Shown here: positions 2,852 to 48,751 of the stretch, one piece after another
Layout of the letters: each line of letters begins with the position of its first letter
Position numbering within the stretch: the stretch's first letter is position 1
Assembly (NCBI GenBank): GCA_032622095.1
Contig: CP136062.1
Coordinates: forward strand, 224,890,578-224,954,577
Direction: 5' to 3'
Length of the DNA stretch: 64,000 nucleotides
Source of the DNA: Siphonodentalium dalli
Taxonomy: Eukaryota; Mollusca; Scaphopoda; Gadilida; Siphonodentaliidae
Notes under the pieces: model-generated
Database searches by the model: none
The model's input: only the letters and a program-made list of their open reading frames with translations
Told to the model about the DNA's origin: nothing
Program-made: the position numbers and the translations under genes

Positions 2852-3035
2852 AAGTTCTTTAGGAAGTTTTTAGTCTTATAATCATAGATGTTTGAAAGAT
2901 GACCCTCAAACCGCTGACAGATATCTTCACCAATTCTGTTTATAACAGATTCTCCCGGTAATGATACCCAAAAACATCTCCGTAATCTATCATCAAAACT
3001 TGCATAGATGTTCAAGCAGTGTCGTGCAATTGGTG
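2852..3035 (-). CDS. CTLD5 N-half exon (last exon seen)
   Basis: N-terminal half of a C-type lectin-like domain, 184 bp, phase 1 to phase 2 (two bases, 60 codons, two bases). Acceptor is catttcag, donor gtgagt. The translation has IARHCLNIYASFDDRLRRC, FWVSLPGES, then DICQRFEGHLSNIYDYKTKN. It keeps the Cys pair, the aromatic strand and the C-x3-F-EGHLSNI motif, closest in this window to the CTLD3 N half. Its C-half partner must lie beyond the left edge, or in the first 2.8 kb, where I found none. A 20-bp tandem array lies about 100 bp upstream in the preceding intron. Confidence 0.83.
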
Positions 3036-3125
3036 CTGAAATGAACAAAAATTAGTCAAAAATATTTCATTTATGTACATGTTAAACACAGATTTAAGAA
3101 ATTTTACAGCATGTTCTATAATTTT

Positions 3126-3385
3126 TAACATATGTCCAAGACAGCCTGTATAAATAATTCAAGCATGTTATAAATAACTCAAGGCATGTTATAAATAACT
3201 CAAGGCGTGTTATAAATAACTCATGGCATGTTATAAATAACTCAAGGCATGTTATAAATAACTCAAGGCAAGTTATAAATAACTCATGGCATGTTATAAA
3301 TAACTCAAGGCATGTTATAAATAACTGAAGGTGTGTTATAAATAACTCAAGGCATGTTATAAATAACTCAAGGTATGTTAATATG
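3126..3385. repeat. 20-bp minisatellite
   Basis: Around a dozen copies of a 20-bp unit (ataactcaaggcatgttata with small variants such as catggc and gcgtg). It lies in the intron about 100 bp upstream of the CTLD5 N-half exon. The reading frame across it is an artefact of the period. Confidence 0.92.
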
Positions 3386-3847
3386 ATCATGTACGTAAAC
3401 GTAATTTGCGCTCGCTTGTTACTGTTCATGGGATTATCGGATGAATTGTTATCTTTATAGAAGGATTTGATGATAAACCCTAAGGGTGGATACACACATG
3501 CATGTAATCTCTGTAATTATCGTATATTTGGCGTTTTACATGGATCATACAGACGATGTAATATGTGTCCACCGACAACCCAATCATTGCCTACGTGTTG
3601 AACGCACTGAGTTCTAGTTCCAATTAAGTCGGAATGTAGATAAGCCGTTATCTTGGACCGAGTCGCCAGGCCACTTAAAATAATTGTTCGTGTGATAACC
3701 CATATGGTAGACTTTCTATTTAAATAATTACCAGTCCTCTCTTATTTATAGCAGTGGTGGATCAGGATTTCCCCGACGCATGCAGGGGCTATATGTGACC
3801 CCGAAAGCTACCAAGCGGGGGTGGCTAACTCTGAGCTATAAACATAT

Positions 3848-4817
3848 CATATTGTACCTTCTTGCCTAGTCCAAGTCTTCTTGTTTTAAAACCAGCTAAG
3901 ATATTGGTATGGCGAGATGCTGGTGTTTAGTCCAAGCCAGCCTGCATAGGCTTCTTATAACACGACTTAAGCGTTAGTGACCCGCTCAAATAAAACCACA
4001 ATTATATGAAATAAAATATCACAATTGCGACAATAAACGGATATTTTCCTCAGAAGACATGCTATTTGATCTGAAACCCACATCAGTTGTGAATTGAAAG
4101 CGGTAATTTAATGTGAAAAGAGACATTTGCCGCATTGTTTACAAATTTTTAAAAGTATGCGAACTCAGTTGACCTCGCGAACTCAGTTGACCTCGCGAAC
4201 TGCGTTCGTCATTTTCCGGTGAAAATATTCCGTAGATTTTCGGTCAACCACGCACGATGAATTATCCATTGTAATCGTAATTATACGTGTCAATAAATAA
4301 ATAAATACATAGATAACGTACATATTGAAGATATAAATGTAATACATTAAATAAATTACGGGAATTAAAACCATCTCACAGTTTAAAACAGTGTAAACAC
4401 AACCAGCATTAGAATAATATGGGGGCTGCCATTTTGTTTCGTCTCGGCCAAAACAAACTTCGGAATATGACGAGGTTCTTTGTAACTCTTCGGGTTTAAG
4501 TTAAAACGTAAACAAAATATAAAAACAGCGATGTCGGTGACAATCAACCGGAATATTCTATGCGTAATTTAACATGAAAGTTAGATTATAATACACCATT
4601 ATGACCATAAGATGTCACTCTTTCCGATGTATATAGCATCATGTATTGATTTGTTAGGTAAATCGAGTAAAATACACCACAAATTCCCGCCACAGATCCT
4701 GGGCGTAAGTCGTGTCATAGGAATGCTATGCAGGCGGGCTTGGACTAAGCACCAACATCTCGCCATACCAATATCTTAGCTGGTTTTAGTACAAGAAGAC
4801 TTGGACTACTTCTTGCC
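3848..4817. mobile_element. Inverted-repeat element (about 120-bp arms)
   Basis: The arm at 3855-3965 (cttcttgcctagtccaagtc ... ggtatggcgagatgctggtg) is repeated inverted at 4688-4812. The enclosed roughly 0.7 kb has no gene; it includes a short direct repeat 'gaactcagttgacctcgc' at 4159-4200. Likely a non-autonomous DNA transposon; exact ends and target duplication are not resolved. Confidence 0.6.
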
Positions 4818-6606
4818 CAGATTATTCCGACCGATACATTCAACTAAGTCCCTTAGCGATAGGAAGCTTTCGAGACCCCCCCCAAACAAGCATCGTGGTT
4901 GAAAATGTTCTACACCAAGCCTGTATATGCCAGACGTATGGCTTCTGGTGGTCGTGCATTAATACAATGCCAGATATCACACAGACTTGACTAATTTCCT
5001 CATCCGTGAGAGAAGACATGTTTTGGACTGGCCTTAAATGTACTGATAGAAGACAATTTGACTTCCCTCAGCACTGCTCACTTGTCTGGCCTGTTAACAA
5101 TGAACCGCTCGCGCGCAGGTGATTAATGTTGTCAATTATTGGTGTGGCCATGTAAAATACATGTACAGAAATTACATGCAATTGTGTATCCACCCTAATT
5201 ATAATGGGACACAAGAAAATGATACTATATATACAATGTATGTAAATAATCACATATAACGTAAATGTGGATATTTAGCCTGCCATGTAATACGAGTCTC
5301 AGCTGTCTGGCCATCGACGCAGTCCTGTCAGGAGTTTTGCGCGCCGGTGTAGGTAGTGACATCATGATGTACGTCTTGATGTCATGACGCCTTTACTGGT
5401 TTCCCAAGAAGCAATCTTAAAATGACTCTGCGATCTTTCAATCGGAACTTTGAGAATATTTCATCAATTTTTTAGGCGGAAATACCGTTAGAAAATTGAA
5501 GATAATATGTAAACGGCCAGCAAGGTTGCTAGATTCCTCTTTCGGTGTAAATATTTTTAATAATTTTATGAAATATGTAAACAAAACTTTTTCATGCAAT
5601 TTAACTTTTTTTGTTAACCAGAGCTTTTGTTCAATTTACATTCACTTTTTGAAAATATATTTGGCTTTAGGAGCATGATGTTCCTACATATGATGAAGTA
5701 TAGCTAACAGTTGCTAGATCAAAGTTTTTTATTTTTGCCCTGGAACATTTTGCCCAATTACACATTTCGAGGTGGCATTAATCAATACAAAATGGCGACC
5801 GTTGCCAACAATAGAATTTTGGACTCCGCTGACCCTGGCTGACCCTTCAGTTATGAATAAATTATCCTATTTTAGGTGATTTCAATTTATTTTTAGATTG
5901 GGCCGAAAAAGTCGATTGGTATATATCTCATATTCGCATACGTATACCCTGGTCGCTTCGCTTCCGCGGCTTTGCCGCGGGAGAGCGGGCGCTATAATAA
6001 ATTAAAGGCGTGTTATTCCAAGGGCCATATGCCTATCCATGGTAGTCCTTCAATTTTGAAGTGCACAATTGCTCTGGCACAACATAGCACACCTGTAATT
6101 GAAAAGTAGTGCGCAAAAAGTTGCATGTCCCACAATCTTAGTTGAGTTGACTAATTAAGTGCAACACAGGAAGGGATGAGTTAACAAAGATTGTCCGGGG
6201 AAATCATAGAATCAAATGTTATACAAAAAGTGTTTTTTTAACCTTCCACGTTCAGTTAGTACTGTTCACTGTGTGTGTGTCACAGAAAACCAAAGAGACA
6301 ACAATGTCAAATTTAACATTGCGGCATCATCAATCACTACTAGCAAAGAGATTCTGACTCCAAGTCACAATGGAACAGACAGACACTCTGTATGAAATGG
6401 GAAAGAGGAAATGGTATGGGATACCCAAATGGTAATTCACCACAATGACTTATCAGTGATACCACTCCCAGAGGGAGTCGGCACAGTACAAAATGTTGCC
6501 AGTATTCCATAATCGAGGACTAATCCATGAGATATGAAATACAAGGAATTTTCATAGAAAATAATTTTCAACTCAAAGAAAGTAAAGATATTAGGATCAG
6601 GCCTTA
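4818..6606. other. Intron sequence, nothing recognised
   Basis: No supported exon. Contains a poly-C tract near 4874, ordinary AT-rich sequence, and a GC-rich hairpin at about 5950-5995 (gcttccgcggctttgccgcgg). Confidence 0.5.
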
Positions 6607-6667
6607 TTAAACCTTTTCATGATGGGAACTGTGCTGTGCAGAATTAAAGATCCTGAACCAGTGCATT

Positions 6668-6709
<42 letters not shown>

Positions 6710-6859
6710 AGTCTCCCATATGAAGCCTTGCATATATAATACTTGCTTACAAGGTCAATGTAAATATTGTTAAGCCAATGTATTCTCTTATATATGTGAG
6801 CATGCATTGGCACACGTTTTTTGCAAAATTTCAAGAAGCTCCAGTCATGGAAGACTTAA
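6607..6859. mobile_element. TTAA-flanked MITE, 'CCTTTTCATGA' family
   Basis: Begins TTAAACCTTTTCATGATGGG and ends ...CCAGTCATGGAAGACTTAA, an imperfect inverted terminal repeat bounded by TTAA on both sides, the piggyBac-type target. The interior carries the recurrent hairpin sequence 'attctcttatatatg...gag' and an (AT)n microsatellite at about 6669-6706. Confidence 0.7.
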
Positions 6860-7588
6860 CACATTTTAACCTATAATTTCAACTCAAAGAAAGTCAAGAT
6901 ATTAGGACCAGGCCTTCTTAAAACATATGTACAGCTATGATCTAATTAATCTACCTTCATTAATGATGTTGACCACTGATATTACTGCGTTACTCGACCG
7001 TATTGATGCAATCAGCATTATCACCACCACAGAGAGTGTATATTTCTGGCATGATGTGACGCTGCATTGATGATGCAATTGTGAATGCTGGTCAGTGACC
7101 AATATCGAATGTTGATTAAACCGTAAAAACATTCTTAATTGAAATATTGTTTTGTGTATAGTTAATATATAGTGCATGGCTTTCATGGAAAAACTGGACT
7201 GGGTGTAAGGCAGCCATGTGAAATATTAATGCGGAGTACAGCAGTCGCAAAAACTTATTAACTAGTACTGCAGTAAGATTTAATACACATGGATGCAGCA
7301 TGCCAACCACTTGACCATGGTTGAATGGCAGTAGAACTGCTATATTCTTGTTAGAGGGGTTTATTAATTAGAGCATAGCTTTAAATGCGTAAAGCAATCG
7401 GAAACCCAACTACTATATATATGTAATTGCTTGTCAAATTATAGTTGAACTTATACCACTGTTCATGGTGATGATAAGGCATGTGTCAAAATGGCTCAAG
7501 TGTCCAGGGTACTAAATCAAAATGTGCATTGAACACCTTATAGCCACTAAATACGCATGAATTAGGGGCTAGGTCAACATATACTCAC
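6860..7588. other. Intron sequence, nothing recognised
   Basis: No exon or clear repeat family beyond a repeated 'caactcaaagaaagt..agatattaggaccaggcctt' block (about 6573-6604 and 6883-6920) that flanks the preceding MITE. Confidence 0.45.
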
Positions 7589-7662
7589 GAATTGATTCAC
7601 AGAAGTAAGGGTAGCTAGACGCGACACCTGTCTGGCATGTTAGATATGTGTAAGTCCCCATC
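7589..7662 (-). CDS. Short C-terminal CTLD4 exon (candidate)
   Basis: A 74-bp candidate exon with a ctctctgcag acceptor and a gtgagt donor, phase 2 to phase 1 (one base, 24 codons, one base), the phases needed between the N-half exons at 8731-8902 and 2852-3035. The translation runs MGTYTYLTCQTGVASSYPYF then CES. The PYFCES ending matches the terminal F-I-C-E-S of the other C-half exons and an upstream Cys sits where the partner Cys is expected. It lacks the WIGL strand and long-loop region that the 206-242 bp sister exons carry. Either CTLD4 is truncated, or its C half is split and I have not seen a middle phase 2-2 exon in 7.7-8.7 kb. Confidence 0.6.
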
Positions 7663-8730
7663 CTGCAGAGAGAAAATATATTTATTGATGTTCACCAAAG
7701 ATTGCAGGGCTGGTGTAACAGGATATCTCCCCCTGGATATCTTCCACCCCCCCCCCATGTATGACTAAAAACAAAAATCCACTCATTTGACCCTGAAATG
7801 GCCAGAACAATTTTATTTGAGATTTAATTAATATTTTTTTTAGATTTCAATCATTTTTTTTCTTCTTTCAAATGAAATGGAAAATAATTATATATATACT
7901 TCCACCTGTCATTTTCACAAATGACACAATTTGCTGCAATTTCCGCTCAAAACACTTGATATTCTTTTTATTATACGAGATTCCAGTGAAATTCGCCATT
8001 TACAATGATAAATGTTCTCATGATCACATTCAATCAATGTAACAAAGCCAACAGCTTATTGCTGCCTCTTCACTTCACCATTCTGAATAGAGAAAATAGT
8101 TCCTGTATTCATCCATTTAACTCCCCAATAATTGTGTCAAATTTCAACATAAAATAGATTTTTATTATAACTATAATAATAACAGTAATAGATCAATCTA
8201 CTGATTTGTGAGGATTTTGAAATATTGCTGAAGCGCATTGGTACACACAAGTGAATCAGTGGCACACTTGAACTAGTGTGAAAGTGAAAACTTCTATAAC
8301 CCCTTCTGTGGGATATCAAAATTTATTTAACTGCGATGTTTTCGATAAATCACTGTTAAGCATATAATCTATCTATATAAAAGCCAGGTGTTTGTATGTG
8401 TGGGCGGAGGCAGGGGAATATCATGGGATAGGTGACATCGACCTGAGATGACTTAAACCGGGACTGATAAATTGAATGATTAGTAAAGAGCATTTATTAT
8501 CAGCTCAGAAAATATGTGGGAAAATTGATGCACAGAGATAACAAGACACAGGAAATGTCACGGGATAGGTGCCGTTGTCCTCAAATGACTTAAAGGTACA
8601 TGTACTAATAATTAGCAATCAAGAGCGTTTATTATCCGCTTAAGTAATTCTTCACACGATGATCCTACATGTCATGTTTATCACCCGTCATTTTTGACAG
8701 GCAATCCCCTAGTAAATACTATATACTCAC
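7663..8730. other. Intron between the CTLD4 exons
   Basis: A poly-C tract at about 7740-7760 and AT-rich sequence. I looked here for the missing middle part of the CTLD4 C half (WIGL and long loop) and found no open, splice-bounded match. Positions about 8370-8680 contain two related blocks ('cagggg/aggaaat...gggataggtg..', '..gcatttattatcagct'). Confidence 0.45.
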
Positions 8731-8902
8731 AAACTATCCAGAATAATAGGGCTCACACCACTAACAGATGTCTTAAGCACTCCGCCATATCTCTTACAGT
8801 CATCTGCAGCTTTAGCATTTCCTTCATCTTTGTAAACAAACCATAAACACGTCCCTGTATTAAAGATGGCATCGTCATGGAAACAAGCTTCTTCTGGAAT
8901 AT
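8731..8902 (-). CDS. CTLD4 N-half exon
   Basis: N-terminal half of a C-type lectin-like domain, 172 bp, phase 1 to phase 2 (two bases, 56 codons, two bases). Acceptor is cattccag, donor gtgagt. The translation includes EEACFHDDAIFNTGTCLWFVYKD split as EEACFHDDAIF and GTCLWFVYKDEG, then ADDCKRYGGVLKTSVSG. The leading Cys pair, the LWF strand and C-x3-GG-x-L are all present. It should be followed by a C-half exon, but only a short 74-bp phase-compatible exon (7589-7662) is recognisable before the next N-half exon. Confidence 0.85.
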
Positions 8903-9353
8903 CTGGAATGAAACACAATTCATTTATCACACCTTAATCAGCCGTCAATCAATGTAACTTGTTCAATCAGGTCCAGCTAATGGCCTGGTAATGTCTATTT
9001 TTGGCAACATATCCAATAAAAATTGACCAATAATTAGGTCTCAAAATAAGGTGCCGGACATTTGCAGAATGAGCTAGGTCCCCAGAGGGTGAACCTGTAG
9101 CATCACCAAATTCACCCTCTGGGGACCTCATTCTGATGGCCTCATCTTCTATGGGAGACCTAAACTCAGATTTAAGTTCCCAGATGAAGATGGTGATGTG
9201 CCCCCATTGGGCACCTCGATTATACATTATATAATTGTGTCGTCTGCCAATTTGATGATATATAGAAACTAAACTGAAAAAAAGAATAAACTATGTGAAG
9301 ACTTTCTCAAGAAACTAAAAAATCCATTAACAAGTATTCAGTTATCAAAGGGT

Positions 9354-9743
9354 TTAACCCTTTACCCAACAGAACGGCCCTGTGCCAATGCATTCTCTTA
9401 TATATGCGAGTCGACCATAGGTCGCCTCGCATATATAAGAGAATGCATTGGCTTAACACATTAAAAATTATAAAATTGTTAAAGAATGTAAGAAAAAATG
9501 GTAAAAAAAGTTTTTTTTTAGGCCAATGCATTCTCTTATATATGCGAGGCGACCTATGGTCGACTCGCATATATAAGAGAATGCATTGGCACAGGGCATA
9601 ACTGTAACTATCACAATGTGGTCAAGGAGCCGATTCCAATGATATCCATATTTGTATGGTGTTATTGAGACAGACCGAAGATATTTTAGGCTGTTGAAGC
9701 TTTATTTGGCCGGTTTTGGCCAGTTTGTTGGGTAAAGGGTTAA
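9354..9743. mobile_element. TTAA-flanked MITE, 'CCCTTTACCCAACA' family, copy 1
   Basis: 390 bp including TTAA at both ends. Terminal inverted repeats read CCCTTTACCCAACA (left) and TGTTGGGTAAAGGG (right). The TTAA target and CCC-start TIR fit a piggyBac-like non-autonomous element. The interior has two perfect or near-perfect palindromes built from 'caatgcattctcttatatat' and 'gcgagtcgaccatagg'. It has no coding sequence. It is inserted about 10 bp into the intron after the 9754-9867 EGF exon. Confidence 0.85.
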
Positions 9744-9753
9744 TAAGACTTAC

Positions 9754-9867
9754 AGTTTTCACAATTGTCGCCCTGGTAACGAGCATGACATTTACATGTA
9801 TAGTTGTGTATCATCTCCACACATGTTCCTCCATTCAAGCACAGGTTTGGGTAACAGTTCTCTATAA
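9754..9867 (-). CDS. EGF-like domain exon between CTLD3 and CTLD4
   Basis: A complete EGF-like module of 114 bp, phase 1 at both ends. The acceptor is gttccag and the donor gtaagt. The translation has ENCYPNLCLNGGTC, then YTCKCHARYQGDNCEN, with all six cysteines in EGF spacing. It is clearly homologous to the EGF exon at 48638-48751 with the same length, phase and C-Y-x-N-L-C start. Phase-1 symmetry means it could be skipped without breaking the frame. A TTAA-flanked MITE (9354-9743) ends only about 10 bp into the following intron, so the donor has almost no native intronic flank. Confidence 0.87.
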
Positions 9868-9958
9868 CTGGAACAAATAAAGATATCATATGAGTATATG
9901 ACATGCCGTATAATTCTCTGAAAGCATTATATCACAAGCTTCAAAAAATATATAAAAG

Positions 9959-10170
9959 TACAGTAATGCCCTAAATAAATGACTCCTTAACCACAGCAGA
10001 ATTATGGGTAACTTTTCAGGATTTAGTCGGAAATATGGCTTGTTGCCATTCATCGGAAAGCTCTCAGTGAGAGCTTTCCGATGAATGGCAACAAGCCATA
10101 TTTCCGATTAAATCCTGAAAAGTTGCCCATAATTGTGGTTAAAGAGTCAATTATTTATTGCATTACTGTA
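9959..10170. mobile_element. TA-flanked foldback MITE
   Basis: 212 bp that is almost one continuous palindrome: TACAGTAATGCCCTAAATAA at the left and its reverse complement ending GCATTACTGTA at the right, with arms of about 100 bp meeting at 'aaagctctcagtgagagcttt'. TA termini suggest Tc1/mariner-type insertion. Same arms as the element at 16896-17495 and half of one at 25711-25806. Confidence 0.85.
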
Positions 10171-10995: not shown

Positions 10996-10999
10996 TAGG

Positions 11000-12043
11000 A
11001 ACATTTCGGAAACGAAAATAAGCTGAATGATAACATCTCAGCCAGCTGAGCCGCCATATTTCGTCAGCCACGAACGTCGCGACTGAGCCAGCTTAGCTAG
11101 CGGTTGATTTGGCGATTTTCTTGTTTAGATTTCAAAATTTTCTCACACCGGGCCGAACAACCATGGTCTATTGCCCATAGTCGTGTGCATTTGACTGGAG
11201 TTAGACCACTAGATGTTAGGATTTGTGCAACAGTGAATATACACCTGTACACATAATGTGAATATGATTAGAAAGATATATTGCGGGACTCATTCATTAA
11301 CCTCATTCTGCTTAGGCATCAACTGCTATGGGAGATCTGAATGGATCAGATTGAAGTTCCCCAGTTGAAGTTGGTGATGTTCACCCATTAGTCACCCCGA
11401 TTATGCATTTTATCTTCTGCAAATTAGGGAATATAGAAACTTCCCAGAAGGGAAAAAGTAACTGAAGACAATGTTAATTTGAGACTATTGATACTTCCCA
11501 GAAGATGAGGCCTAAGCAGAATAAGGCACCCAGAGGGTGAATTTGGTGATGCTAGCCCACCATGTGGGATAGCATCACTAAATTCACCCTCTGGGGACAT
11601 CATTCTGCAAATGACAGACACACTATTTCAAGGCTTGATATGAGAATATATAAAAAATATTGAACTGTTCTGAGTAGGGTATGGTTCTTCTCCTCGGGTG
11701 AGATGCAAAGGTTTATTTTTAACGAGAGGAGAAAAACCATATACTATTCAGAACAGTTAACTGTCGTTGTGTTTATTTTATTTTCTATACAAGTTTGGTA
11801 CAACAAAGACCACAATGAAACACACAGTTAGACATAAAACCTTCTTAAAGCTACAATATCACAAGCCATGTCTGTTAAATTAACGTGCAAGGATACCGAA
11901 TGATGCAAAAATATGACGTCATGATGCAGTGCTGAGAGTGGGATAACAGCTTGAGAGTGGAATAACACGTTCGGTCTTCTGGGAGTGGGGATATGATTAA
12001 AATTTTGACGTAAAAAGTCTATGGAAATATAATAAAGTAAAAT
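11000..12043. other. Intron sequence with hairpin repeats
   Basis: No exon recognised. About 11527-11607 holds an inverted repeat around 'ccagagggtgaatttggtga' and its complement, also found at about 9080-9125 and 22507-22575. About 11660-11752 holds a second inverted pair ('actgttctgagtagggtatggttcttctcctc'). Confidence 0.55.
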
Positions 12044-12410
12044 ACTCACACACTGATTGGCAGAGAGCCGGGTAGAGAGATGATGAAGTAAAATACTCAC
12101 ACACTGATTGGCAGAGAGACGATGAAATAAAATACTCACACACTGATTGGCAGAGAGCCAGGTAGAGAGACGATGAAGTAAAATACTAACACACTGATTG
12201 GCAGAGAGACGATGAAATAAAATACTCACACACTGATTGGCAGAGAGACGATGAAATAAAATACTCACACACTGATTGGCAGAGAGCCAGGTAGAGAGAC
12301 GATGAAGTAAAATACTAACACACTGATTGGCAGAGAGACGATGAAATAAAATACTCACACACTGATTGGCAGAGAGACGATGAAATAAAATACTCACACA
12401 CTGATTGGCA
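12044..12410 (-). repeat. Tandem array of CTLD3 exon end plus 5' splice site (39/51 bp units)
   Basis: Nine units contain the exon's last bases (tctctgccaatcagtgt on the minus strand) followed by a donor. The donors lie at 12044, 12095, 12134, 12185, 12224, 12263, 12314, 12353 and 12392, giving spacings of 51, 39, 51, 39, 39, 51, 39 and 39 bp, with the 51-bp units holding an extra 12 bp. Seven donors are GTGAGT; those at 12185 and 12314 are GTTAGT. The first unit at the exon side is the genuine exon boundary. All spacings are multiples of three. Confidence 0.93.
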
Positions 12411-12603
12411 GAGAGCAGGAAATGGCATTATTGGATCAGCACTCATCCAATACTTATCAGATCTCAGGAGACCTGCATTTCTACCAGACGGTTGATTAGG
12501 CGCCCAGTTAGTGTAACTGAGTGGCTCTCCATCGTAGTTAGTCCATCCTGTGCCTAAATCATGAGCTCCAAAATAATGGCCATTCATATTATTGTTATTC
12601 AAC
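12398..12603 (-). CDS. CTLD3 C-half exon with amplified donor
   Basis: C-terminal half of a C-type lectin-like domain, 206 bp, phase 2 to phase 1 (one base, 68 codons, one base). Acceptor is cttttccag, donor gtgagt. The translation includes NGHYFGAHDLGTGWTNYDG, SYTNWAPNQPSGRN, DKYWMSADP and FPALCQSV. YFGAHDL is the equivalent of WIGLxD, NWAPNQPSG fits the EPN/QPD loop region with a QPS triplet, and ALCQS replaces FICE. Two of the usual C-half cysteines are not present; only the last Cys is seen. The last codons, the donor and some intron form a nine-copy tandem array that includes this exon end. Several array donors could be used instead, adding in-frame residues (see findings). Confidence 0.83.
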
Positions 12604-13009: not shown

Positions 13010-13217
13010 TTATTGGCAGAGAGCCGGGTAGAAGGCTGCTGAAACGACATTCATCCAATACTGATCAGATTTCAGCAGACTTGCATTTCTAAAAGAGGCC
13101 GGTTGAGTGGGAGCCCAGTTAGTGTAATTGAGTGGCTCTCAATAGTAGTTTGTCCATCCTGATCGTGAATCATAAGCTCCAATTAATATACGCTTGATCT
13201 GTATTGATATTATTCAA
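13010..13217 (-). pseudogene. Decayed duplicate of the CTLD3 C-half exon
   Basis: This stretch aligns along its whole length with the exon at 12398-12603. It retains the attccag acceptor followed by the same opening bases, the TNY, NYTNWAPTQP-like and DQYWMN-like segments, and the PALCQ ending. It carries a frameshift near its start, an in-frame TGA where the intact exon has GAT-GGA, and no gtgagt donor, its end running into caataaataatgg. It lies about 400 bp upstream of the intact exon in transcription order, separated by a TTAA MITE. The simplest reading is a local exon duplication that has since decayed; it should be skipped in the mRNA, though its acceptor could still be recognised. Confidence 0.8.
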
Positions 13218-13263
13218 CCTGGAATCGTATGATTATGACATACTGGTATAAGTATAACATTTA

Positions 13264-13510
13264 GCAAATGACCCAGTGAATGATCCAGCTAGTGACCCAG
13301 CGAATGACTCAGCTAGTGACCCAGCGAATGACCCAGCAAATATCCCAGTAAATGACCCAGCGAATGACCCAGCAAGTGACCCAGCGAATGTCCCAGCAAA
13401 TGACCCAGTGAATGACCCAGCAAATGACCCAGTGAATGACCCAGCAAATGACCCATTGAATGACCCAGTGACTGACCCAGTGACTGACCCAGCAAATGAC
13501 CCAGCGAATG
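13264..13510. repeat. 10-bp-based minisatellite (gacccagcaaat-type)
   Basis: Tandem copies of a degenerate 10-bp core (gacccagcRa/atgacccagt). It opens reading frames on both strands (DPAN-type and GSFA-type peptides), which follow from the repeat period and base composition and are not evidence of a gene. It lies upstream of the decayed CTLD3 exon copy. Confidence 0.9.
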
Positions 13511-13587
13511 ACCTTATAAACTCATTAACACAATTTACGCAACACATGTGCTATCAATTATGTGTAAGAAGATGGTTCAAGGAACAG

Positions 13588-16678: not shown

Positions 16679-16859
16679 ACGTAATCAGTAATGAACACAG
16701 CTGTCTCATTATCAGGAATGTTAGAAAGATGACCCTCATATGTATCGCAGGCGATGTTGCCATCTGTGTAGTTTAGTGGTATTGTGTTGAGCCAATAGTA
16801 AGCCTTGTTCGGTGAGTAGAATCTTGCGTACAATGGAAACACACCAGACTCAATTCTCG
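16679..16859 (-). CDS. CTLD3 N-half exon (first cysteines missing)
   Basis: N-terminal half of a C-type lectin-like domain, 181 bp, phase 1 to phase 2, found by reading the strand directly. The acceptor is gtttag and the donor gtaagt. The translation runs RIESGVFPLYARFYSPNK, AYYWLNTIPLNYTDG, then ACDTYEGHLSNIPDNETAVF. The helix Cys and EGHLSNI strand are retained and resemble the 2852-3035 exon (EGHLSNIYD). The first two cysteines seen in sister exons are replaced (V and A/Y), so one N-terminal disulfide should be absent. There is no stop or frameshift, and length and phases are identical to the sister exons. A TA-flanked foldback element of 600 bp begins 37 bp upstream of the exon. Confidence 0.83.
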
Positions 16860-20567: not shown

Positions 20568-20809
20568 CCTGTGATTCACAGATAAAGCCAGCAGATGGTG
20601 TGGTTTGATAACACCGAGCGTTCTCGAAGAGACATTTGTTATTCAGCGCCACACACTCCTTCAGGGTGTCTGATGAATCTGGCTGTGAACTGTCCCATCG
20701 AGTGTAGTCAACTGTCCAATCTTCCCGTGTTGTCCAGTTTGCTGCCAGAAGTCCATCAAGTTTGTCATCTTTCAACCCAATCCAGACACTCTTGCATCTA
20801 GCTTTGAGT
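20568..20809 (-). CDS. CTLD2 C-half exon, QPD-type motif
   Basis: C-terminal half of a C-type lectin-like domain, 242 bp, phase 2 to phase 1 (one base, 80 codons, one base). Acceptor is catcccag, donor gtgagc. The translation has SVWIGLKDD, LAANWTTREDWTVDYTRWD, SSQPDSSD, ECVALNNKC and AGFICES. This is the most canonical CTLD half in the window: WIGL, a QPD triplet in the long-loop position, and the closing Cys pattern. In characterised C-type lectins QPD goes with galactose-type specificity, but the WND motif that normally completes the Ca site is absent (sequence there is CLFENARC), so sugar binding is only a possibility. A TIR element of about 1.2 kb (19274-20498) ends 70 bp into the following intron. 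Confidence 0.9.
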
Positions 20810-23042: not shown

Positions 23043-23223
23043 ACATAATCATACACAAAATAAGTTGAATCCATGTCGTAGAATGTCGCCAAGTTTCCTT
23101 CAAATATTTGACATCTGGCTTGGGCGGGGTTTGCTTTCATAGACTCGTCATCCCACCAGTAACAGCGACGGAGTGGATGATAATACTGTGCTTCCGGGTG
23201 AAGGCAATAACTGCTACCTCTCT
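23043..23223 (-). CDS. CTLD2 N-half exon
   Basis: N-terminal half of a C-type lectin-like domain, 181 bp, phase 1 to phase 2. Acceptor is gtttcag, donor gtaagt. The translation includes SSYCLHPEAQYYHPLRRCYWW, then ARCQIFEGNLATFYDMDSTY, which matches the leading Cys pair and the C-x3-F/Y-G/E-G-x-L helix-to-strand motif of the family. It pairs with the C-half exon at 20568-20809 across a 2.2-kb intron. The reading frame is open and key cysteines are present. A mollusc-type dispersed repeat lies directly downstream in the intron. Confidence 0.85.
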
Positions 23224-29155: not shown

Positions 29156-30330
29156 AGGGTGTAATATCCTTATCTAGATATTCACAAAGAAATGGGGTCT
29201 ATAGGGTGTAATATACTTACCTAGAGATTCACAAAGAAATGGATCAGAACTATGACATGTATAAGGTGTCCATGTCTATAGGGTGTAATATCCTTACCAA
29301 GAGATTCACAAAGAAATGGGGTCTATAGGGTGTAATATTCTTACCTAGAGTTTCATAAAGAAATGGATCAGAACTATGACAAGTATAAGGTGTCCATGTC
29401 TATAGGGTGTAATATCCTTACCAAGAGATTCACAAAGAAATGGGGTCTATAGGGTGTAATATCCTTACCAAGAGATTCACAAAGAAATGGGATCTATAGG
29501 GTGTAATATCCTTACCAAGAGATTCACAAAGAAATGGATCAGAACTATGACATGTATAAGGTGTCCATGTCTATAGGGTGTAATATCCTTACCAAGAGAT
29601 TCACAAAGAAATGGGATCTATAGGGTGTAATATTCTTACCTAGAGATTCACAAAGAAATGGATCAGAACTATGACATGTATAAGGTGTCCATGTCTATAG
29701 GGTGTAATATCCTTACCAAGAGATTCACAAAGAAATGGGGTCTATAGGGTGTAATATCCTTACCAAGAGATTCACAAAGAAATGGGATCTATAGGGTGTA
29801 ATATCCTTACCAAGAGATTCACAAAGAAATGGATCAGAACTATGACAAGTATAAGGTGTCCATGTCTGATCTATAGGGTGTAATATCCTTACAAAGATAT
29901 TCACAAAGAAATGGGGTCTATAGGGTGTAATATTCTTACCTAGAGTATCATAAAGAAATGGATCAGAACTATGACATGTATAAGGAGTCCATGTCTATAG
30001 GGTGTAATATCCTTACCAAGAGATTCACAAAGAAATGGGATCTATAGGGTGTAATATCCTTACCAAGAGATTCACAAAGAAATGGGGTCTATAGGGTGTA
30101 ATATTCTTACCTAGAGTATCATAAAGAAATGGATCAGAACTATGACATGTATAAGGAGTCCATGTCTATAGGGTGTAATATCCTTACCAAGAGATTCACA
30201 AAGAAATGGGATTTATAGGGTGTAATATCCTTACCTAGATATTCACAAAGAAATGGGATCTATAGGGTGTAATATCCTTACCAAGAGATTCACAAAGAAA
30301 TGGATCAGAACTATAACATGTATAAGGAGT
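29156..30330 (-). repeat. Tandem array of CTLD1 exon end plus 5' splice site (about 20 units)
   Basis: About 20 units of roughly 46-49 or 75-81 bp contain, on the minus strand, the last codons of the 30282-30496 exon (...ttctttgtgaatctcttg), a gtaagg or close donor, and about 20 bp of intron. The longer units also copy the preceding codons (the WTPYTCYSS stretch). Short and long units alternate in higher-order blocks. The unit furthest from the exon (about 29160) has lost the GT of its donor; nearly all others keep GT. Confidence 0.93.
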
Positions 30331-30496
30331 CCATGTCAATGTAGCACCGTTGTTGATCATTCTAACACAATCTCTATCAGTGGTACCTCTGATGTTAAGC
30401 TGGTTCACTATCTTATTATCCCACGACATATGCAGTTGTTCCACCATCTTCTTGTTAACTCCAATCCAAAAGTGCAGCACACGGCTCCCTCTGAGA
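30282..30496 (-). CDS. CTLD1 C-half exon
   Basis: C-terminal half of a C-type lectin-like domain, 215 bp, phase 2 in and phase 1 out (one base, 71 codons, one base). It opens after tttatttcag and closes at a gtaagg donor. The translation has the conserved WIGV strand, then DRDCVRMINNGATLTW, then CYSSDPFLCES at the end, the equivalent of the family's usual F-I-C-E ending. No EPN or QPD sugar-binding triplet and no WND are visible, so classical Ca-dependent sugar binding is not supported for this domain. The exon is sandwiched between two tandem arrays. On its 3' side about 20 copies of its own last codons plus donor run to 29156; on its 5' side a roughly 41-44-bp intronic repeat begins next to the acceptor. 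Confidence 0.87.
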
Positions 30497-30501: not shown

Positions 30502-30915
30502 ATAAACAACAAACACTCTGATCAAAATCACAGGTAAACAAACATGCTAAACAACAAACACTCGGATCAAAGTCACAGGTAAACATGTTAACCAACAAAC
30601 ACTCTAATTAAAATAATAGGTAAATATGTCAAACAACAAACACTCGGATCAAACTCATAGGTAAACATATTAAACAACAAACCCTCTGATTAAAATAATA
30701 GGTAAATATGTCAAACAACAAACACTCTGATCGAAATCATAGATAAACATATTAAACAACAAACCCTCTGATTAAAATAATAGGTAAATATGTTAAACAA
30801 CAAACACTCTGATCAAAATCATAGGTAAACATATTAAACAACAAACCCTCTGATTAAAATAATAGGTAAATATGTTAAACAACAAACACTCTGATCAAAA
30901 TCATAGGTAAACATG
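30502..30915 (-). repeat. Intronic tandem array abutting the CTLD1 C-half acceptor
   Basis: About nine or ten copies of a roughly 41-44-bp unit (plus-strand core aacaacaaacactctgatca followed by aaatcataggtaaacatgtt). Two subtypes alternate: one with 'cactctgatcaaaatcat' and one with 'ccctctgattaaaataat'. The first copy begins within a few bases of the splice acceptor of the 30282-30496 exon, so the T-rich minus-strand version supplies its polypyrimidine region. Confidence 0.88.
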
Positions 30916-30989
30916 TTGCTTGATATTTGTACAGTTTGAAAACCAGAGCATCCCTGGGGTCGTGGTTAAAAACGTCAGCTCTTTCAACA

Positions 30990-39715: not shown

Positions 39716-39896
39716 ATTGAATTGAAAACAAAATCACCAATTGTATCCGTGTCTACTGTTGCAAGCTGGCCTCCGTATATTCCACATTGAGTGTTTGCAG
39801 TGATTGTACTCTTGTCTTGATACACCATCCAGAAGCATGAATCTGTGTCACTGTTGTATACCCCATCTGGATGAAGGCACGCTCCACTGGGAGAAT
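39716..39896 (-). CDS. CTLD1 N-half exon
   Basis: N-terminal half of a C-type lectin-like domain, 181 bp, phase 1 in and phase 2 out (two bases, 59 codons, two bases). The acceptor is tacag and the donor gtgagt. The translation contains GACLHPDGVYNS, CFWMVYQDKST, then TQCGIYGGQLATVD. That gives the pattern expected of this half: a leading Cys, an aromatic second strand after the next Cys, a helix with Cys, then GG-x-L. It pairs by phase with the C-half exon at 30282-30496, making a complete CTLD across a roughly 9.2-kb intron full of transposons. The reading frame is open throughout. Assigned to the gene because length and phases match the 23043-23223 and 16679-16859 exons. Confidence 0.85.
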
Positions 39897-41440: not shown

Positions 41441-42770
41441 ATTCTTTACCTGGTAGCCAATTACAGTATTACTGTAGTTGAACAGACAAATGAAACTGAA
41501 ACTCTCTTCCGAAAATCAACGACAAATGAGTTATGTGTAAGCAATTTTGATTGGCTGGACAGCCACCTCTTACGCAACACATATTTTGTTATTAACCCTG
41601 CTCCGGGTTAATATCGTGATTTATCAACCCGGCCACGCCAATCAATTACTATAGGGTTCGCGGGAGAAAATTAATGATCATATAATAATTCCTATTAATA
41701 TCTCATGACGTCGCGTGATCTTGTTATTAACCCATCTGTCCTATTTATAGGACAATCCAGTAAATATCATGATTTATCAACTTATTTTCAGTATCATTTA
41801 GTATGGGACTTTGAGTAGAAAGTTTGTGATCATATAATAACTGTTTATATCATATTGGTTTATATGATATTGGTTTATATGTCGGTTTCTACGATATCGA
41901 GTTGTATTTATACAGACCATCTGTGTTACACTAAATCCTGTTCCGTGATTGGTCAACTGCCAAATGGGTCACCTGTTTCATACTCCAATAACACAGACCG
42001 TAACACGAACATGATGTCACAAATTGTCAACCTAATCCGACCTTATCACTAAAAGCAGTCAGCAGAATAATTGGGCGTGCTTTTCACAGTTCAGCCGAAT
42101 TGCATCTGAAGCCAGTTATTTATATTGATCACGTTATTGTTGTTGAGTGCTTGGAAATATTATTTTGGGCCCACTTAATGTGCTGCGTGGGCTAGTCTAA
42201 AATTCTCGTAAGATTTTGTGAAAATTATTAAGAATACATCAGCTATTTTATGAAAATAAATCATCAAAAAGCTATATAAATATAATAAATTAATGTAGTA
42301 GGTGTGTTTTATTGGGGGACACAGCGCTGTGGTTGTTGGTGGAACATTTAGTGAAAACTGCTTCGCGGTTTAAACAATATGCTCCATCCCCGAATAACAC
42401 ATACCAGTGGCGTAGGAGCGGGTACGGCCAGACGGTTTTGGCCGTACCAATATTCGCACCAGTGAAGTTTTTTGTTGTTACACACATGGGAATGGTGCGA
42501 TTGGGGACAGTCATAAAACACGGAATGTGGAACTTCTACGATGCCATGCTGCTTAATTTATAGTTCTTATCGAAGAAACGTCGTTGACTATATCATGTTA
42601 TCCGTCTTCGATAATTAAGAGCCCTATAAATTCCCAGCAGCACATATCTTATCTTATATGTATCTCAAATTCCCTTTCCCCGCTTCTCCCAGAATTTAAT
42701 TTAACTTTATTTATTTATATTGTACTGCTCTTTTACTATCTTAAGTTAGCAGATATGTGACTGTAAAGTT

Positions 42771-44106
42771 TAGAGCTGAAACGGTTAGACGGATAACCGG
42801 TTAGCATCCGGTTAGCGACGTAACCGGTTAGAAAAAAATGAACCGGACATAACCGCATCCCGTTGTCAGTTGAATGTGAATAATCCTCAAAATATTAGGT
42901 TAAATGATGCAAAACTAATACTAAATCCTGTGTCACCGATAGTAGAGTGCAATGCAAGCATTAATTGGTACACGCGGTAGTATCAGATACTTAGTAGCAA
43001 TTCTCGAACTGTCTGGAAGTGTCGGCGACCTTCAATCAATTCCGACCCTTTGAAGTTTTCTCTGATCTTCCGACAAAAGCACGTGTGCAGTCACTGTGTA
43101 TCAAGTCTGAATGCACACAAGGAAGTGACAACGTAAAAGTGGCGTTGTGTGGCAATGCGTGCTTTCGTAACTTAATAGTTAATACTGCACGAAGCAACAT
43201 CGATTCAAATTGGAATGACACCACGACATACTAAAACTGTTTAACAGTGGGGTTTATAAAAACTATGTAAGTCGACAAAGTTTGATGATTGAGATCAGCT
43301 GCACAATGTCTTCACTCTTCCCGTTCTTCCTCCCTGTTGTGATCTAATATGATCAATTCAATTGAGTGACCAAACAGACATTGTAGTTGAAGCAACCCAA
43401 AACTTCTTCAATGATCTTCCCTTTTATCAAGTAAATTGATGCTCCATGCTACTCTGTAACTAGTTGTGCCTGTGGGACTAATTGACACTCAATTTGGCAG
43501 TAATTTCTATATGTTAAGTGATTGCATACTAAAACCGAAAAAACCAAAACGTAAATCTATAACCTTCCAACACTAGTGTCCGCGATCATGATACAGACGA
43601 ATAGCTCGAATACTGAACAGGACTGCGAGTCTGACCGAACTGACCTTCCTTTTTGTTCTATAGTTATTACTTTCTTGTCTTTATATATAATTCATTGGAG
43701 GATATACCAATGATAATGATATATTACAGATCTTTAATATATAGTTTTTTTACTCGTTTTACCAATACCCATACTATTGTTACTCGTTTTACAAATGCCC
43801 AAACATATGCTGATCACGGCAAATAAGCGATCCCCCCTGCCATTCACAAATTTCACTTGCTCATTCCCCATCACAAGAGCCAGCAAAAGAACAGTGAATG
43901 CGTGTTTTTGAATATCGTTAAATGCCGTGAATAAGGTCTTTATTTCAGCTACTATTTCTCACCTAGGTTTGTCCCTGGAGCATGGGCATAATGTGGATAT
44001 AATTAGTGTGAGAGAAGTCCGCTAGAAATTAGCGGTTAACCGGTTGAAATCCGGCTAACCCCGATGGTTAACCGGTTAGAAGAATGGGTCAACCGTTTCA
44101 GCTCTA
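42771..44106. mobile_element. Non-autonomous hAT nested in the larger hAT, perfect target duplication
   Basis: 1,336 bp bounded by TAGAGCTGAAACGGTT and its reverse complement AACCGTTTCAGCTCTA, with gtaaagtt duplicated at 42763-42770 and 44107-44114. Subterminal 'aaccggttag' motifs are repeated many times at both ends. No transposase. It is inserted 190 bp upstream of the start codon of the host hAT's transposase gene, likely separating it from its promoter. Confidence 0.92.
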
Positions 44107-44295
44107 GTAAAGTTAATAAAAATGTCAAGATTAAGATAGAAGACAGGTGTACCACTTTGCGACCAAGATGTCTGGAACCACCATCTCGTGCCTGGATATC
44201 ACCACAGTTGTCGACAGATACAGACAGTGCTTGGTGGATGCTGTATTTCTGGACATGGACATCGATATCGAAGGCGAAGAACACTATAACGAACA

Positions 44296-46849
44296 ATGTC
44301 AATCTTGAATTATTTTAAGAGACCGAGGTAAGTTCTTCCAATAATTATTATTCTTCGTTCGTCGTATTATGGTTCGAGCACAGCTTTAAACGTTTCGTCC
44401 TAAAGTTATATATGTATATCAACATTTAACATAACATGCCAACACATTTATTTCTATTTCTTCAGTAGCCATGGCACATCAGATGGTGGACAAGATGAAC
44501 CTCCCGCGAAAATCCTCCAACAGGACAGCCACACAGCAAGCTCAGTTCCTTATTCATCTCACAATATAACCAGCTCAACAGGGGTTAGCTCCACAATTCA
44601 GACCCCACCGACGACAGCAACATATTCGACTGCGGTCATCAATATAGGTGATGTGGGATTGGAGCCAAATCAACCAAACAATATTGAATTTCCTAAGCGG
44701 ACATTTGGAAAGAAAAAGCCAGTACTCCGTTCATTCCAAGGGTCTTGGTTCGAAAGATGGTCTTGGATTCATTGCTCACAAGAACATGACTTGGCTTTCT
44801 GCCATGTCTGTGTTAGAGCTTTCAGGGAGAAAAAACTCTCATCGCACAAAATGGAGCCCACTTTCGTGACAAGGGGATTCAGTAACTGGAAAGAGGCGCG
44901 TAGAAACAGGCAGGGATTTCACGCTCACGAAATTTCTGATTGTCATCGCGAGGCAGTAGAACGGGTTGTTACCCCTTCACGTGATGTTGGGGAGGAATTA
45001 TCAATAATTCATAGGGACGAGAAGTTCCAAAACAGAAGGAATATGTTAAAAGTGATTTCCTGTTTGAGATTTTTGAGCCAACAGGGGCTTGCTCTCCGTG
45101 GTCACGATGATGAGGAATCCAATTTCCAACAACTATGTCTTCTTCGAGCTGAGGACGACTCTCAGTTAGCTGGGTGGCTCGCAAATAAGCGTGATGCTTA
45201 CACGTCCCCACAGATCCAAAACGAAATACTGGGAATTTTTGCCAACACAATTTTGCGCAATATAGCAAATGATATTCAAAATTGCGACTTTTTCGGAATA
45301 TTGGCTGATGAATGTACGGACCTGTCCAACTTGCAACAGTTGGTTATATGCCTCAGATGGATTGACAACGAACTTGTAGCGCACGATGAATTTATTGGAC
45401 TGTGCGATCTTGATGCTGCGTATGCTCCGTCAATTGCCAGTAGAATAAAGGATGTTTTGTTGAGACTTATGCTGCCGCTCTCGAAAGCAAGGAGTCAATG
45501 CTATGATGGATGTGGCATGATGGCAGGAAAGAAACGAGGAGTGGCACAGCTGATTAAGAATGAAGAATCTAGGTGCCTCTATCTCCACTGCTATGGACAT
45601 GCGTTGAACTTAGCATGCGCAGATTCTATCAAACAAAATCCATTGATGAAAAATGCATTGGACATAACGTACGAAATAACAAAGCTCGTAAAAAAAGTCA
45701 CCTAAACGGGATGCGAAGTTGAAGTTAATAAAAAAACAGTTAGAGAAAGACGACGATAACTTGTCGCCTAATGTACGTCTACTTTGTCCAACAAGGTGGA
45801 CCGTCAGAGCAGACTCTCTGAAGAGTATCATCGAAAATTACGATCAGCTCAGAGAGCTCTGGGAGTGGGCTAAGATTAATACGATGGACACCAAAATGAA
45901 GGCTCGCATTATAGGTGTACATTCCTACATGTCAAGGTTCGATTTTTACTTCGGATTACACCTTGGACAGATGTTACTTCGTCACGCTGACAAAGTGAGT
46001 GCTACACTTCAGAAGAGGGATATTTCTGCTGCTGAAGGGAAGTCACTGGCCAACATGACCATCAAAACATTACAGCGTATCCGCACCGATGAGGAGTTCT
46101 CTCTGTTCTGGGAGTATGTGAACAAACGAGCTAAGAATGCAAGAATCAATGAACCAGTGCTGGAGAGACAGCGCAAGGTCCCACATAGATATGAAGAAGG
46201 CACCGCTAACCCAGAGTACCCTGAAACCCCAGAACGCTTTAAGAAGGTTTACATTAACGTAATGGACTTTCTTATAAATACAATTAAAGACAGGTTCGAC
46301 CAAGAAGATTACCATACATATTCAATGTGCGAGCTGCTGTTAATGAAAGCTGCACAGGGGGGAGATTATAAATCAGAATTAGAAGCTGTGATAAATTTTT
46401 ATGGGGCAGACTTCGAATATGACACCTTATATTCACATTTAATGACTCTGAAATCGAACAAACCAGCTGGATGCCACAGTCTGCACGATCTTCTGGTCTA
46501 CCTACGTTCCTTAACAGAGCACCAGCGATCGCTGATATCACAAGCTGTCAAACTAGTGAAGTTAGTGCTTGTTATGCCAGCTACAAATGCTACCAGCGAG
46601 CGTTCATTTAGTGCTCTCAGACGACTCAAAACTTTTCTAAGAACAACGATGTCACAGAACCGCCTTAACCATCTGATGGTGACATATGTACAATAAGAAA
46701 GGGCACAGCAGCTGAATCTGATTGATGCCGGGAATGTATTTGTGTCAAACTCCGAGCAGTATCGCTCTGCTGTCTTCGGTAAATTCAGCAAATATGACAA
46801 ATCCAAGGCATCGGTACCAAGCAGAGACAAATCAGTTCAAACAATCTGA
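44296..46849 (+). pseudogene. hAT transposase (ZMYM1-like), one frameshift and one in-frame stop
   Basis: Two coding exons. Exon 1 (44296-44327) gives MSILNYFKRP, the usual ILNYF/FF start of such proteins, and ends at a gtaagt donor. Exon 2 starts at 44466 after ttcttcag in the matching phase. Exon 2 encodes a TTF-type zinc-finger region (FQGSWFERWSWIHC, then FCHVCVRAF), a DUF4371-like catalytic region (FGILADECTDLSNLQQL, YDGCGMM, YLHCYGHALNLAC), and the C-terminal hAT dimerisation motif (ATNATSERSFSALRRLK). The frame is broken at an A7 run (45690-45696), after which coding resumes in another frame. A TAA at 46694-46696 interrupts the tail, which stays codable to a stop at 46847-46849. So the transposase is probably inactive but recently so; the A7 break could also be a sequencing error. 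Confidence 0.88.
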
Positions 46850-47416
46850 TGCTGAATTTGTGCTCCCGAAAACGACTGTAAATATGTATCCTCTATTGTT
46901 CAAGCTCTATATATTCATTGGTATGATATATATCTCTTCCATTCAGCAACATTAATTATCCATCGTCGTTCCTGTATTCGTATGATGGAATTTTCTTTTG
47001 GAGGAGTAATTTTATCGTGGAAAACCGCTTTAAGTTTTGCAGAACATTGGTGATTAATTTGTACAGCAACATTGTTTGTCTTATTTGTGTTACACGTACG
47101 TCGGGATATGATTAATTCAGATGCTTTTCATGCATGGTTGTTATACCGGTGAGTATTGATGCATGTTTCATTCTTTTCTCCCAGCATGTGTAATGTAACA
47201 TTGGTTACGCCAAAATGCACCAGAAAGCGCCATTTCAATTTCCATACCATCCCCCCTTCTCGGCGCTCCACGCGCCTCGGACCCGCGCAAGCGTAGCTAT
47301 GGAATTATACCTGTGGGCCGTAGGAATAATTATAACCTTCCTACGCCACTGCATACACCCACTACATTAATTTCTTAAATATGAAATTTGTTTATATGGT
47401 ATAGATTTATATGATA

Positions 47417-48068
47417 CTAGCAGATTTGCCCGCCACTGGCGGGATTGGTCCCATGGCTTTTGTCGATCCATTAATTTTTGTTTTTCAAGGTAACCCTGTA
47501 TGTCGCTGCCACTGCTGATGCCCGAAATATCGCCTAAGGTCATTTGCGGGTACCCGTGTCAAGGTCATGTTGGGTGGACAAAATAACCCGACAAAAATAT
47601 TTCCCGTCCCGAGTTGACAATACATAACAAATTTCACATCGATGTCACCGCTGACTACCGAGATATCGCCCAAGGTCATTTGTGGGTACCCGTTTCAAGG
47701 TCAAGGTCACCTCGGGCGGACAAACTGACCCGACGAAATCTCCCTCATCCCTTAGAACCCCGAAGTATGAAATTTCGTCTCGATATCCCCAGTTTCCGAG
47801 ACGGTCAAATGCTGTATATTTTCACTAAAGTAGATAAACGCTCTTTAATAGCGACGCCTCATATACAAACGCTCATTAATTATCACGCGATTAACGTGAT
47901 TACGGTGGCAGTTGAAGGGTGAAGGAGTGGTCGTACAGGCTCGCGAATGGTCTGAGTTTACTGCCTGTGGCTTTTTACCCTTACACAGCAAGTTTGGGCT
48001 CAATCGGTCGAGCCGTTTTTCGAGTCTATAAAGGACATACACACGGAAGTCTCAAAATATATAGTAGA
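47417..48068 (-). mobile_element. Helitron-like element E (minus orientation)
   Basis: On the minus strand it starts TCTACTATATATTTTGAG and ends with hairpin cccgccagtggcggg, then caaatctgCTAG and T. The interior has two copies of 'gatatcgcc(c)aaggtcattt' with 'gggtacccgtntcaaggtca'. It ends about 50 bp from the EGF-donor tandem array. Confidence 0.78.
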
Positions 48069-48109
48069 TCAGTTAATATGATACAAGTTCAGGATGACAT
48101 GAATATGTG

Positions 48110-48680
48110 TAAACTATATCCTTACAGTTTCACAGTGAATGCCTGTGTATTGAGGATGAAGACATGTGTAAACTATTCATATACTTACATGTTTCACAAT
48201 GAATGTCTGTGTATTGAGGATGATGGCATGTGTAAACTATTCATATACTTACATGTTTCACAATGAATGTCTGTGTATATGAGGATGATGGCATGTGTAA
48301 ACTATTCATATACTTACATGTTTCACAGTGAATGTCTGTATATTGAGGATGAAGACATGTGTAAACTATTCATATACTTACATGTTTCACAGTGAATGTC
48401 TGTATATTGAGGATGAAGACATGTGTAAACTATTCATATACTTACATGTTTCACAATGAATGTCTGTGTATTGAGGATGATGGCATGTGTAAACTATTCA
48501 TATACTTACATGTTTCACAGTGAATGTCTGTATATTGAGGATGAAGACATGTGTAAACTATTCATATACTTACATGTTTCACAATGAATGTCTGTGTATT
48601 GAGGATGATGACATGTGTAAACTATTCATATACTTACATGTTTCACAGTGAATGCCTGTGTATTGAGGATGACATGAACA
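48110..48680 (-). repeat. Tandem array of EGF exon end plus 5' splice site (64 bp units)
   Basis: The 64-bp unit comprises, on the minus strand, the last roughly 40 bases of the EGF exon (through the final two cysteines), a gtaagt donor and about 20 bp of intron. Intact donors lie at 48183, 48247, 48312, 48376, 48440, 48504, 48568 and 48632, plus a degenerate unit near 48119. Period is 64 bp with one 65-bp step, so copies shift frame relative to each other. The copy at 48632 is the genuine exon boundary. Confidence 0.93.
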
Positions 48681-48751
48681 TGTGTAGTTATTGATTCCAT
48701 CCAAGCACGTACCACCATTCTGACAAAGATTACTGTAGCAGTTAACGTTCT
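48638..48751 (-). CDS. EGF-like domain exon of the multi-CTLD/EGF gene (most 5' exon seen)
   Basis: One complete EGF-like module. It has six cysteines in EGF spacing, including the segments [13 protein letters not shown] and [13 protein letters not shown]. The exon is 114 bp, phase 1 at both ends (two bases, 37 codons, one base). It opens after a pyrimidine-rich tttacag acceptor and closes at a gtaagt donor. EGF modules of this kind are extracellular, disulfide-bonded and often mediate protein contacts; no Ca-binding EGF consensus (D-x-D/N-E) is evident at the start. It shares length, phase and layout with the second EGF exon at 9754-9867, so both belong to the same modular gene by inference. 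Its 3' end and donor are the seed of a 64-bp tandem array on the intron side. A TTAA-flanked MITE lies 48 bp upstream of the acceptor side. Upstream exons and the start codon were not found; the LINE region occupies the next 14 kb. Confidence 0.85.

Follow-up and report, generated by a model that had tools for sequence, protein, structure and literature searches.

Minisatellites spanning 5' splice sites recur in a C-type-lectin/EGF gene family of the scaphopod Siphonodentalium dalli

We examined a stretch of 64,000 nucleotides from the Siphonodentalium dalli genome (C2:224890578-224954577, in a genome of 2.2 Gb and nine contigs), hereafter the window, and observed that a minus-strand gene in it carries minisatellites across the 5' splice sites (donors) of three exons, designated A, B, and C. 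In each case the repeated unit was the exon's own end together with its 5' splice site, as determined using Tandem Repeats Finder (TRF) and by reading the minus strand. Such donor arrays were also observed elsewhere in the lectin/EGF family to which the gene belongs. Among 43 further family exons, eight donors were spanned (L148, L159, L160, L174, L180, L182, L184, and L186), against 1/133 in control genes (Fisher p = 5.5e-5); of the families sampled, only this one showed the enrichment. As a modestly probable explanation, we propose recurrent junction-spanning tandem duplication at permissive exon borders of one fast-evolving, tandemly duplicated lectin/EGF family.

The window gene consists of C-type-lectin and EGF exons in alternation, transcribed in the order A, X1, B, E, D, G, C, second EGF exon, and F. 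When a conceptual protein of eight exons was scanned against Pfam, Lectin_C scored 96.8 bits over three stretches (cut-off 22.6) and EGF scored 23.0 bits (cut-off 21.5); both domains of this modular gene thus exceeded the curated cut-offs. An earlier note on this stretch had described tandem expansions across the exon end and 5' splice site at three of about eleven exons. The three expansions were confirmed, together with the dissimilarity of their units, which are unlike each other because each is built from the end of its own exon; the exons found were nine intact ones and one decayed copy. The arrays contained nine (A), 19 (B), and nine (C) donor copies. When arrays with a period of at least 8 and at least 2.5 copies were counted over the gene span, 3/11 began in the last 60 nt of one of the nine exons, whereas 0.13 were expected (p = 2.5e-4). 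This estimate is post hoc, since the gene was chosen because of its donor arrays; therefore, independent replication was sought in other exons of the family.

A protein search for the family listed 88 matches, mostly on C2 at 16.75-16.88, 28.76-28.91, and 224.33-225.12 Mb. The family sample comprised 38 of 40 fetched matches and five more exons (L005-L009), all from three clusters on one contig. The other two fetched matches, L166 and L167, lay outside the clusters and were counted among the controls, which further contained 51 lectin exons (of 150 PF00059 matches listed), 40 of 149 Sushi exons, and 40 of 150 I-set exons. Exons within the family are not independent, and all p-values comparing family with controls serve as guides. 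The arrays of L174 and L186 were related; when they were counted once (seven events), the donor enrichment remained (p = 2.3e-4), and it was also observed against the 51 lectin controls alone (p = 0.010). The only spanned control donor was that of L034 (C5:70834296), a lectin exon outside the family with a 36-bp unit in at least 14 copies. An effect of a single chromosome region is not supported, since every one of the three clusters (C2 at 16.8, 28.8, and 224-225 Mb) contributes. Recent tandem duplication as such seems insufficient as well, because several groups of clustered, neighbouring matches are present among the lectin controls. In the TRF coverage profile of the 51 lectin controls, coverage was higher on the donor side, partly from the copies of one cluster (L019/L020 and L025/L027/L028).

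Several exons required a decision in scoring. In L183, which groups with L180, a related array begins just after the donor and its later copies contain the donor; this exon was kept outside the strict count. The array at L119, an I-set control, stops just before the match and was not scored as spanning, and L165, a poor exon match, was kept in the denominator. For L180, the automatic donor call was 669 and the donor read from the sequence was 574; the array spans both positions. Array-spanned acceptors were found in 3/43 family exons and 0/133 controls (Fisher p = 0.014). The acceptor-spanning arrays of L153, L176, and L009 had units of 166, 41, and 88 bp, respectively, and each copies the intron end, the AG, and the exon start.

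The recurrence was also apparent when related exons were compared. Copy number at the exon-intron boundary differed between paralogous exons: the donor array of L182 was absent from L176, that of L034 was absent from L057, and exons B and C differed between the window gene and an inverted copy of it at C2:224408300-224475000. In a tree of first-half exons (28 rows, six of them labelled, L183 included), the donor-array label required four changes; many inner branches were weak, and three of the changes were forced by well supported ones. These three indicate more than one origin of the donor arrays.

In the inverted paralogue, array A was found in common with the window gene (94% over 612 nt of query) and is therefore older than the gene duplication. 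Both arrays at exon B (47-bp at the donor, 41-bp on the acceptor side) would most simply have arisen in the window copy, because the paralogue has a plain donor without an array and only one copy of the 41-bp acceptor-side sequence. At exon C, an array was observed at the same donor in the paralogue, with an 84-bp unit instead of 39 bp. Because the two units agree in their exon parts but not in their intron parts, they probably stem from separate events at this donor. The independence of the three events, as proposed earlier, therefore needs qualifying: A predates the duplication, B is absent from the paralogue, and C is present in both copies with different units. In the paralogue itself, 2/13 arrays have their start within the final 60 nt of an exon (p = 0.005), one of the two being the shared array A.

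The positions at which the arrays begin were then compared between -60 and +330 of the donor. In the family, 7/11 starts lay inside the exon end, compared with 1/16 in the controls (p = 0.0025; family against a uniform distribution, p = 3.8e-4). The start density in the last 60 nt of family exons was about ten times that in the adjacent intron, with seven starts over 43 x 60 nt of exon and four over 43 x 330 nt of intron, and intron starts were similarly frequent in both groups (4 in 43 family flanks and 15 in 133 control flanks). The repeated unit was estimated to take in about 8-49 nt of exon end (about 80 at L180), plus 6-32 nt of intron in 12/14 arrays. In control genes, donors were covered less than introns (1/133 vs 4-8% of sampled intron positions). 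In the family, for which 38 of the 43 exons were measured, 5-26% of intron positions were covered, and the coverage of donors (8/43) was somewhat above the 5-16% of intron positions under arrays that do not span a donor.

Genome-wide, AGGTAAGT in three copies with gaps of 12-42 gave 2014 matches, compared with 2199 for the reversed control; since every match was counted, large arrays contribute disproportionately, and among the matches listed all places were on C1. Tandem arrays in general are not donor-rich, because these triplets are no commoner than the reversed control, and a donor hot spot acting throughout the genome is unsupported at the level that could be tested. The shared cause suggested in the earlier note is consequently upheld at the level of the family, in which donors are spanned more often than in controls and starts favour the exon end. 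In the genome-wide form of a mutational focus on donors it is not supported, given these triplet counts and the low coverage of control donors.

Two further candidate causes found no clear support. Array-free X1 precedes a long intron just as A and B do, and C precedes a short one, which speaks against intron length. Between the two gene copies, the exons are constrained, with nonsynonymous divergence (dN) of 0.096, synonymous divergence (dS) of 0.234, and dN/dS of 0.41 over 416 scored codons (exon D and the second EGF exon left out). No trend with fast exon evolution was observed: dN/dS was 1.02 for C, but 0.51 for X1, 0.50 for B, and 0.00 for A with its shared array.

According to the proposed explanation, the minisatellites would start as small tandem duplications straddling the exon/intron junction and would later grow as any minisatellite does. 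In this family, exon borders would be exceptionally susceptible to insertions and duplications, or would tolerate them unusually well. Splicing would go on with the first, exon-proximal donor, leaving the protein as it was and the extra donors as passengers of the intron, and permissiveness rather than benefit would keep the arrays. Other insertions are consistent with such borders. Mariner-like termini, identified as matches to TACAGTAATGCYCTAA in which at most two substitutions were allowed and assigned to this class by inference from the TA and inverted termini, were found within 120-130 nt downstream of the exon match in 6/38 family exons and 5/133 controls (p = 0.016), and within the same distance upstream in 6/38 and 2/133 (p = 0.0017). 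In L156, L157, L158, L168, L171, L175, and others, these termini lie from a few to about 100 nt from the exon borders. Furthermore, the last copy of array C runs into sequence with 15 further genome matches. These findings support the view that family exon borders tolerate or attract insertions on both sides.

Several results weigh against this explanation. All arrays were read from one assembly. Among the 43 family exons alone, eight donors and three acceptors were spanned, a difference that is not significant (p = 0.20). With the window and paralogue exons added, the numbers were 13 and 3 of 61, a significant excess of donors (p = 0.014); the fewer acceptor hits may reflect an upstream decoy acceptor harming splicing more than a downstream decoy donor. 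Against an assumed background of 10%, 8/43 donors is borderline (p = 0.06; for 13/61, p = 0.007). The tenfold start density at family exon ends is not explained by permissiveness alone. Finally, the GT of the extra donors had one mismatch in 237 base readings, whereas 11.4 were expected for a random dinucleotide (p = 0.011; independent arrays only, p = 0.019), a count that depends on the array ends and becomes 3/245 when some ends overrun. For other GTs of the same units 14.6 mismatches were expected, and 0/20000 draws were as low as the donor GT. The near-invariant GT in the extra copies hints at constraint. The wider donor context of these copies was not conserved (5.7% vs 4.9% mismatches, p = 0.26), and their per-position profile, which looks donor-like but rests mostly on B and L160, whose copies share changes by descent, was not relied on.

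Taken together, permissive borders explain part of the pattern, and the start density needs either focused mutational input, such as duplications that accompany transcription or splicing in the germ line, or an advantage from having many U1 sites. It is possible, although we hold this only tentatively, that a heritable process, mutational (through germ-line transcription or splicing) or selective (for U1-site arrays), repeatedly multiplies 5' splice sites exon by exon, and that the arrays are non-coding controls of splicing or expression, not alternative exon ends.

The selective form alone appears unlikely to us. Selection would here keep arrays of U1-binding sites at the starts of family introns, for instance for stronger exon definition, for tuning expression by unproductive splicing, or for suppressing premature polyadenylation in long, transposon-filled introns. 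The focus of array starts on donors, the GT almost invariant in extra copies, and the different units of two paralogues at the same exon C donor would all be expected from it. However, GT alone is conserved, acceptors are spanned as well, X1 has no array ahead of the longest intron of the gene, and sister exons manage without arrays.

Plain relaxed constraint, whereby a fast-turnover family would fail to purge chance minisatellites overlapping its borders that are purged elsewhere, is judged a little less likely still. It accounts for the sparse coverage of control donors relative to control introns, for the 5-26% coverage of family introns, and for mariner-like termini nearer family exon borders on both sides. 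It does not agree with exon ends ten times denser in array starts than the adjacent intron or with exons that are intact and constrained between the gene copies.

It is highly improbable that the extra donors serve, like those of human IFI6, as alternative exon ends that diversify the protein or act as spare splice sites. When read-through was checked in 13 arrays, no donor beyond the first was in frame before a stop in 11 of them, and at phase-2 donors inside the lectin domain a stop was met at once in 4/5 arrays. The exceptions, open and in frame, were array C with two extra donors and L034 with 13. In L034, the reading frame remains open across the 14 donors seen in the 36-bp array, which would allow 13 in-frame exon extensions. 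Since most arrays offer no full-length extra donor, neither alternative exon ends nor spare donors can account for the arrays in general; the same result leaves the selection for redundant donors proposed earlier unsupported, at least in its simple sense. Selection for in-frame unit lengths was not seen either: the 12 separate arrays had units of 64, 47, 39, 84, 36, 47, 51, 58, 55, 134, 31, and 54 bp, of which five are multiples of 3, with four expected. Coincidence in a minisatellite-rich genome is scarcely credible, since the pattern was replicated in 43 exons outside the original observation (p = 5.5e-5), even though several per cent of the intron positions sampled lie within arrays and donor-motif triplets show no genome-wide excess.

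The features of the window gene are listed in Table 1. The decayed copy of exon C represents an exon-level tandem duplication within the gene. Directly upstream of it lies a 12-bp array (13263-13513) in which a frame of more than 100 amino acids is open on either strand. The intron between A and X1 contains a hAT-type transposase remnant (44404-46696) with two overlapping plus-strand frames (DUF4371 and Dimer_Tnp_hAT). A long interspersed nuclear element (LINE)-like element with a reverse-transcriptase reading frame recognised by eye is located at 53678-58687. It has two more partial copies at 2355-bp spacing, in which 300-nt stretches are 100% identical, a tandem duplication of long units.

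Table 1 Exons and arrays of the window gene (positions within the window; a slash marks the exon end)
Feature	Position	Strand	Description	Basis or paralogue
Exon A	48638..48751	-	EGF-like domain; phase-1 donor AAACAT/GTAAGT at 48637	Sequence reading; conserved in paralogue
Array A	48116..48686	-	64-bp unit x about 9; begins 49 nt inside exon A	TRF, sequence reading; common to paralogue (L001)
Exon X1	39716..39896	-	First half of lectin domain 1; no array at donor	Conserved in paralogue
41-bp array	30503..30917	-	Adjoins exon B acceptor; intronic only	TRF; single copy in paralogue (L002)
Exon B	30282..30496	-	Second half of lectin domain 1; donor CTCTTG/GTAAGG at 30281	
Array B	29156..30337	-	47-bp unit with higher-order repeat; begins 56 nt inside exon B	TRF, sequence reading; absent from paralogue
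Exon E	23043..23223	-	First half of lectin domain 2; no array at donor	Donor without array in both gene copies
Exon D	20568..20809	-	Second half of lectin domain 2; no array at donor	Donor without array in both gene copies
Exon G	16679..16859	-	First half of lectin domain 3; no array at donor	
Decayed duplicate of exon C	13012..13218	-	In-frame stops; no donor at homologous place	
Exon C	12398..12603	-	Second half of lectin domain 3; donor CAGTGT/GTGAGT at 12397	
Array C	12038..12416	-	39-bp unit (129-bp higher order); begins 19 nt inside exon C	TRF, sequence reading; paralogue unit 84 bp at same donor
Second EGF exon	about 9755..9859	-	Donor without array	Ends approximate, from protein match
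Exon F	2852..3035	-	First half of lectin domain 4; no array at donor	

The earlier note knew of no named system of this kind; however, precedents were found in the literature. The human IFI6 gene (6-16, G1P3) contains a minisatellite with multiple splice donors (Turri, Cuin and Porter 1995, Nucleic Acids Research 23:1854), and two downstream repeat units act as donor sites to give three mRNA species (PMC4526556). In both systems a minisatellite provides several splice donors. Arrays of this type, whose unit is the exon end plus the 5' splice site and whose first copy is the exon end, were counted three times in the window, twice in the paralogue, eight times in the 43 family exons, and once (L034) in the 133 controls. 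IFI6 is a single gene with extra donors that give isoforms, whereas here many exons of one family carry mostly unproductive extra donors, only 2/13 arrays (C and L034) having donors capable of giving isoforms. In human genes of segmental duplications, internal tandem repeats at exon-intron boundaries were associated with 27 intron modifications (De Grassi and Ciccarelli 2009, PMC2812944). That study likewise concerns boundary minisatellite expansion in groups of recent paralogues, but reads it as novel introns and alternative splicing, and the available part of the report describes no donor-focused recurrence in one family.

Splice signals are also copied through tandem duplication in the model of intron gain by Rogers (1989), in which AGGT-bearing exon segments are duplicated, and in fission yeasts, in which a 24-bp AGGT segment was multiplied (PMC4974935). 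There, a new intron forms inside an exon, whereas here an existing donor is multiplied into an existing intron: the units hold the donor, the copies sit in the existing intron, and no new donor and acceptor were found inside a former exon. Prawn C-type lectins form another lectin multigene family with minisatellite variation, but their variable tandem repeats are coding and lie within exon 2, not across splice sites (PMC7536079). In C. elegans, regions of alternative splicing have an excess of one minisatellite in their vicinity (PMC4039745). A literature search limited to the titles and abstract openings of open-licence papers showed no account of donor arrays recurring within a gene family. 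Accordingly, the recurrence of donor arrays within one gene family looks new, single cases being already known in humans.

The family provides many replicates of a process otherwise described case by case, and its sister exons without arrays serve as built-in controls. Three questions thereby become accessible: whether mutation is concentrated at splice donors; whether additional donors do no harm, take part in splicing, or bind U1; and whether donor arrays supply material from which exons are extended and introns altered. The recurrence of these arrays could reveal how splice sites change.

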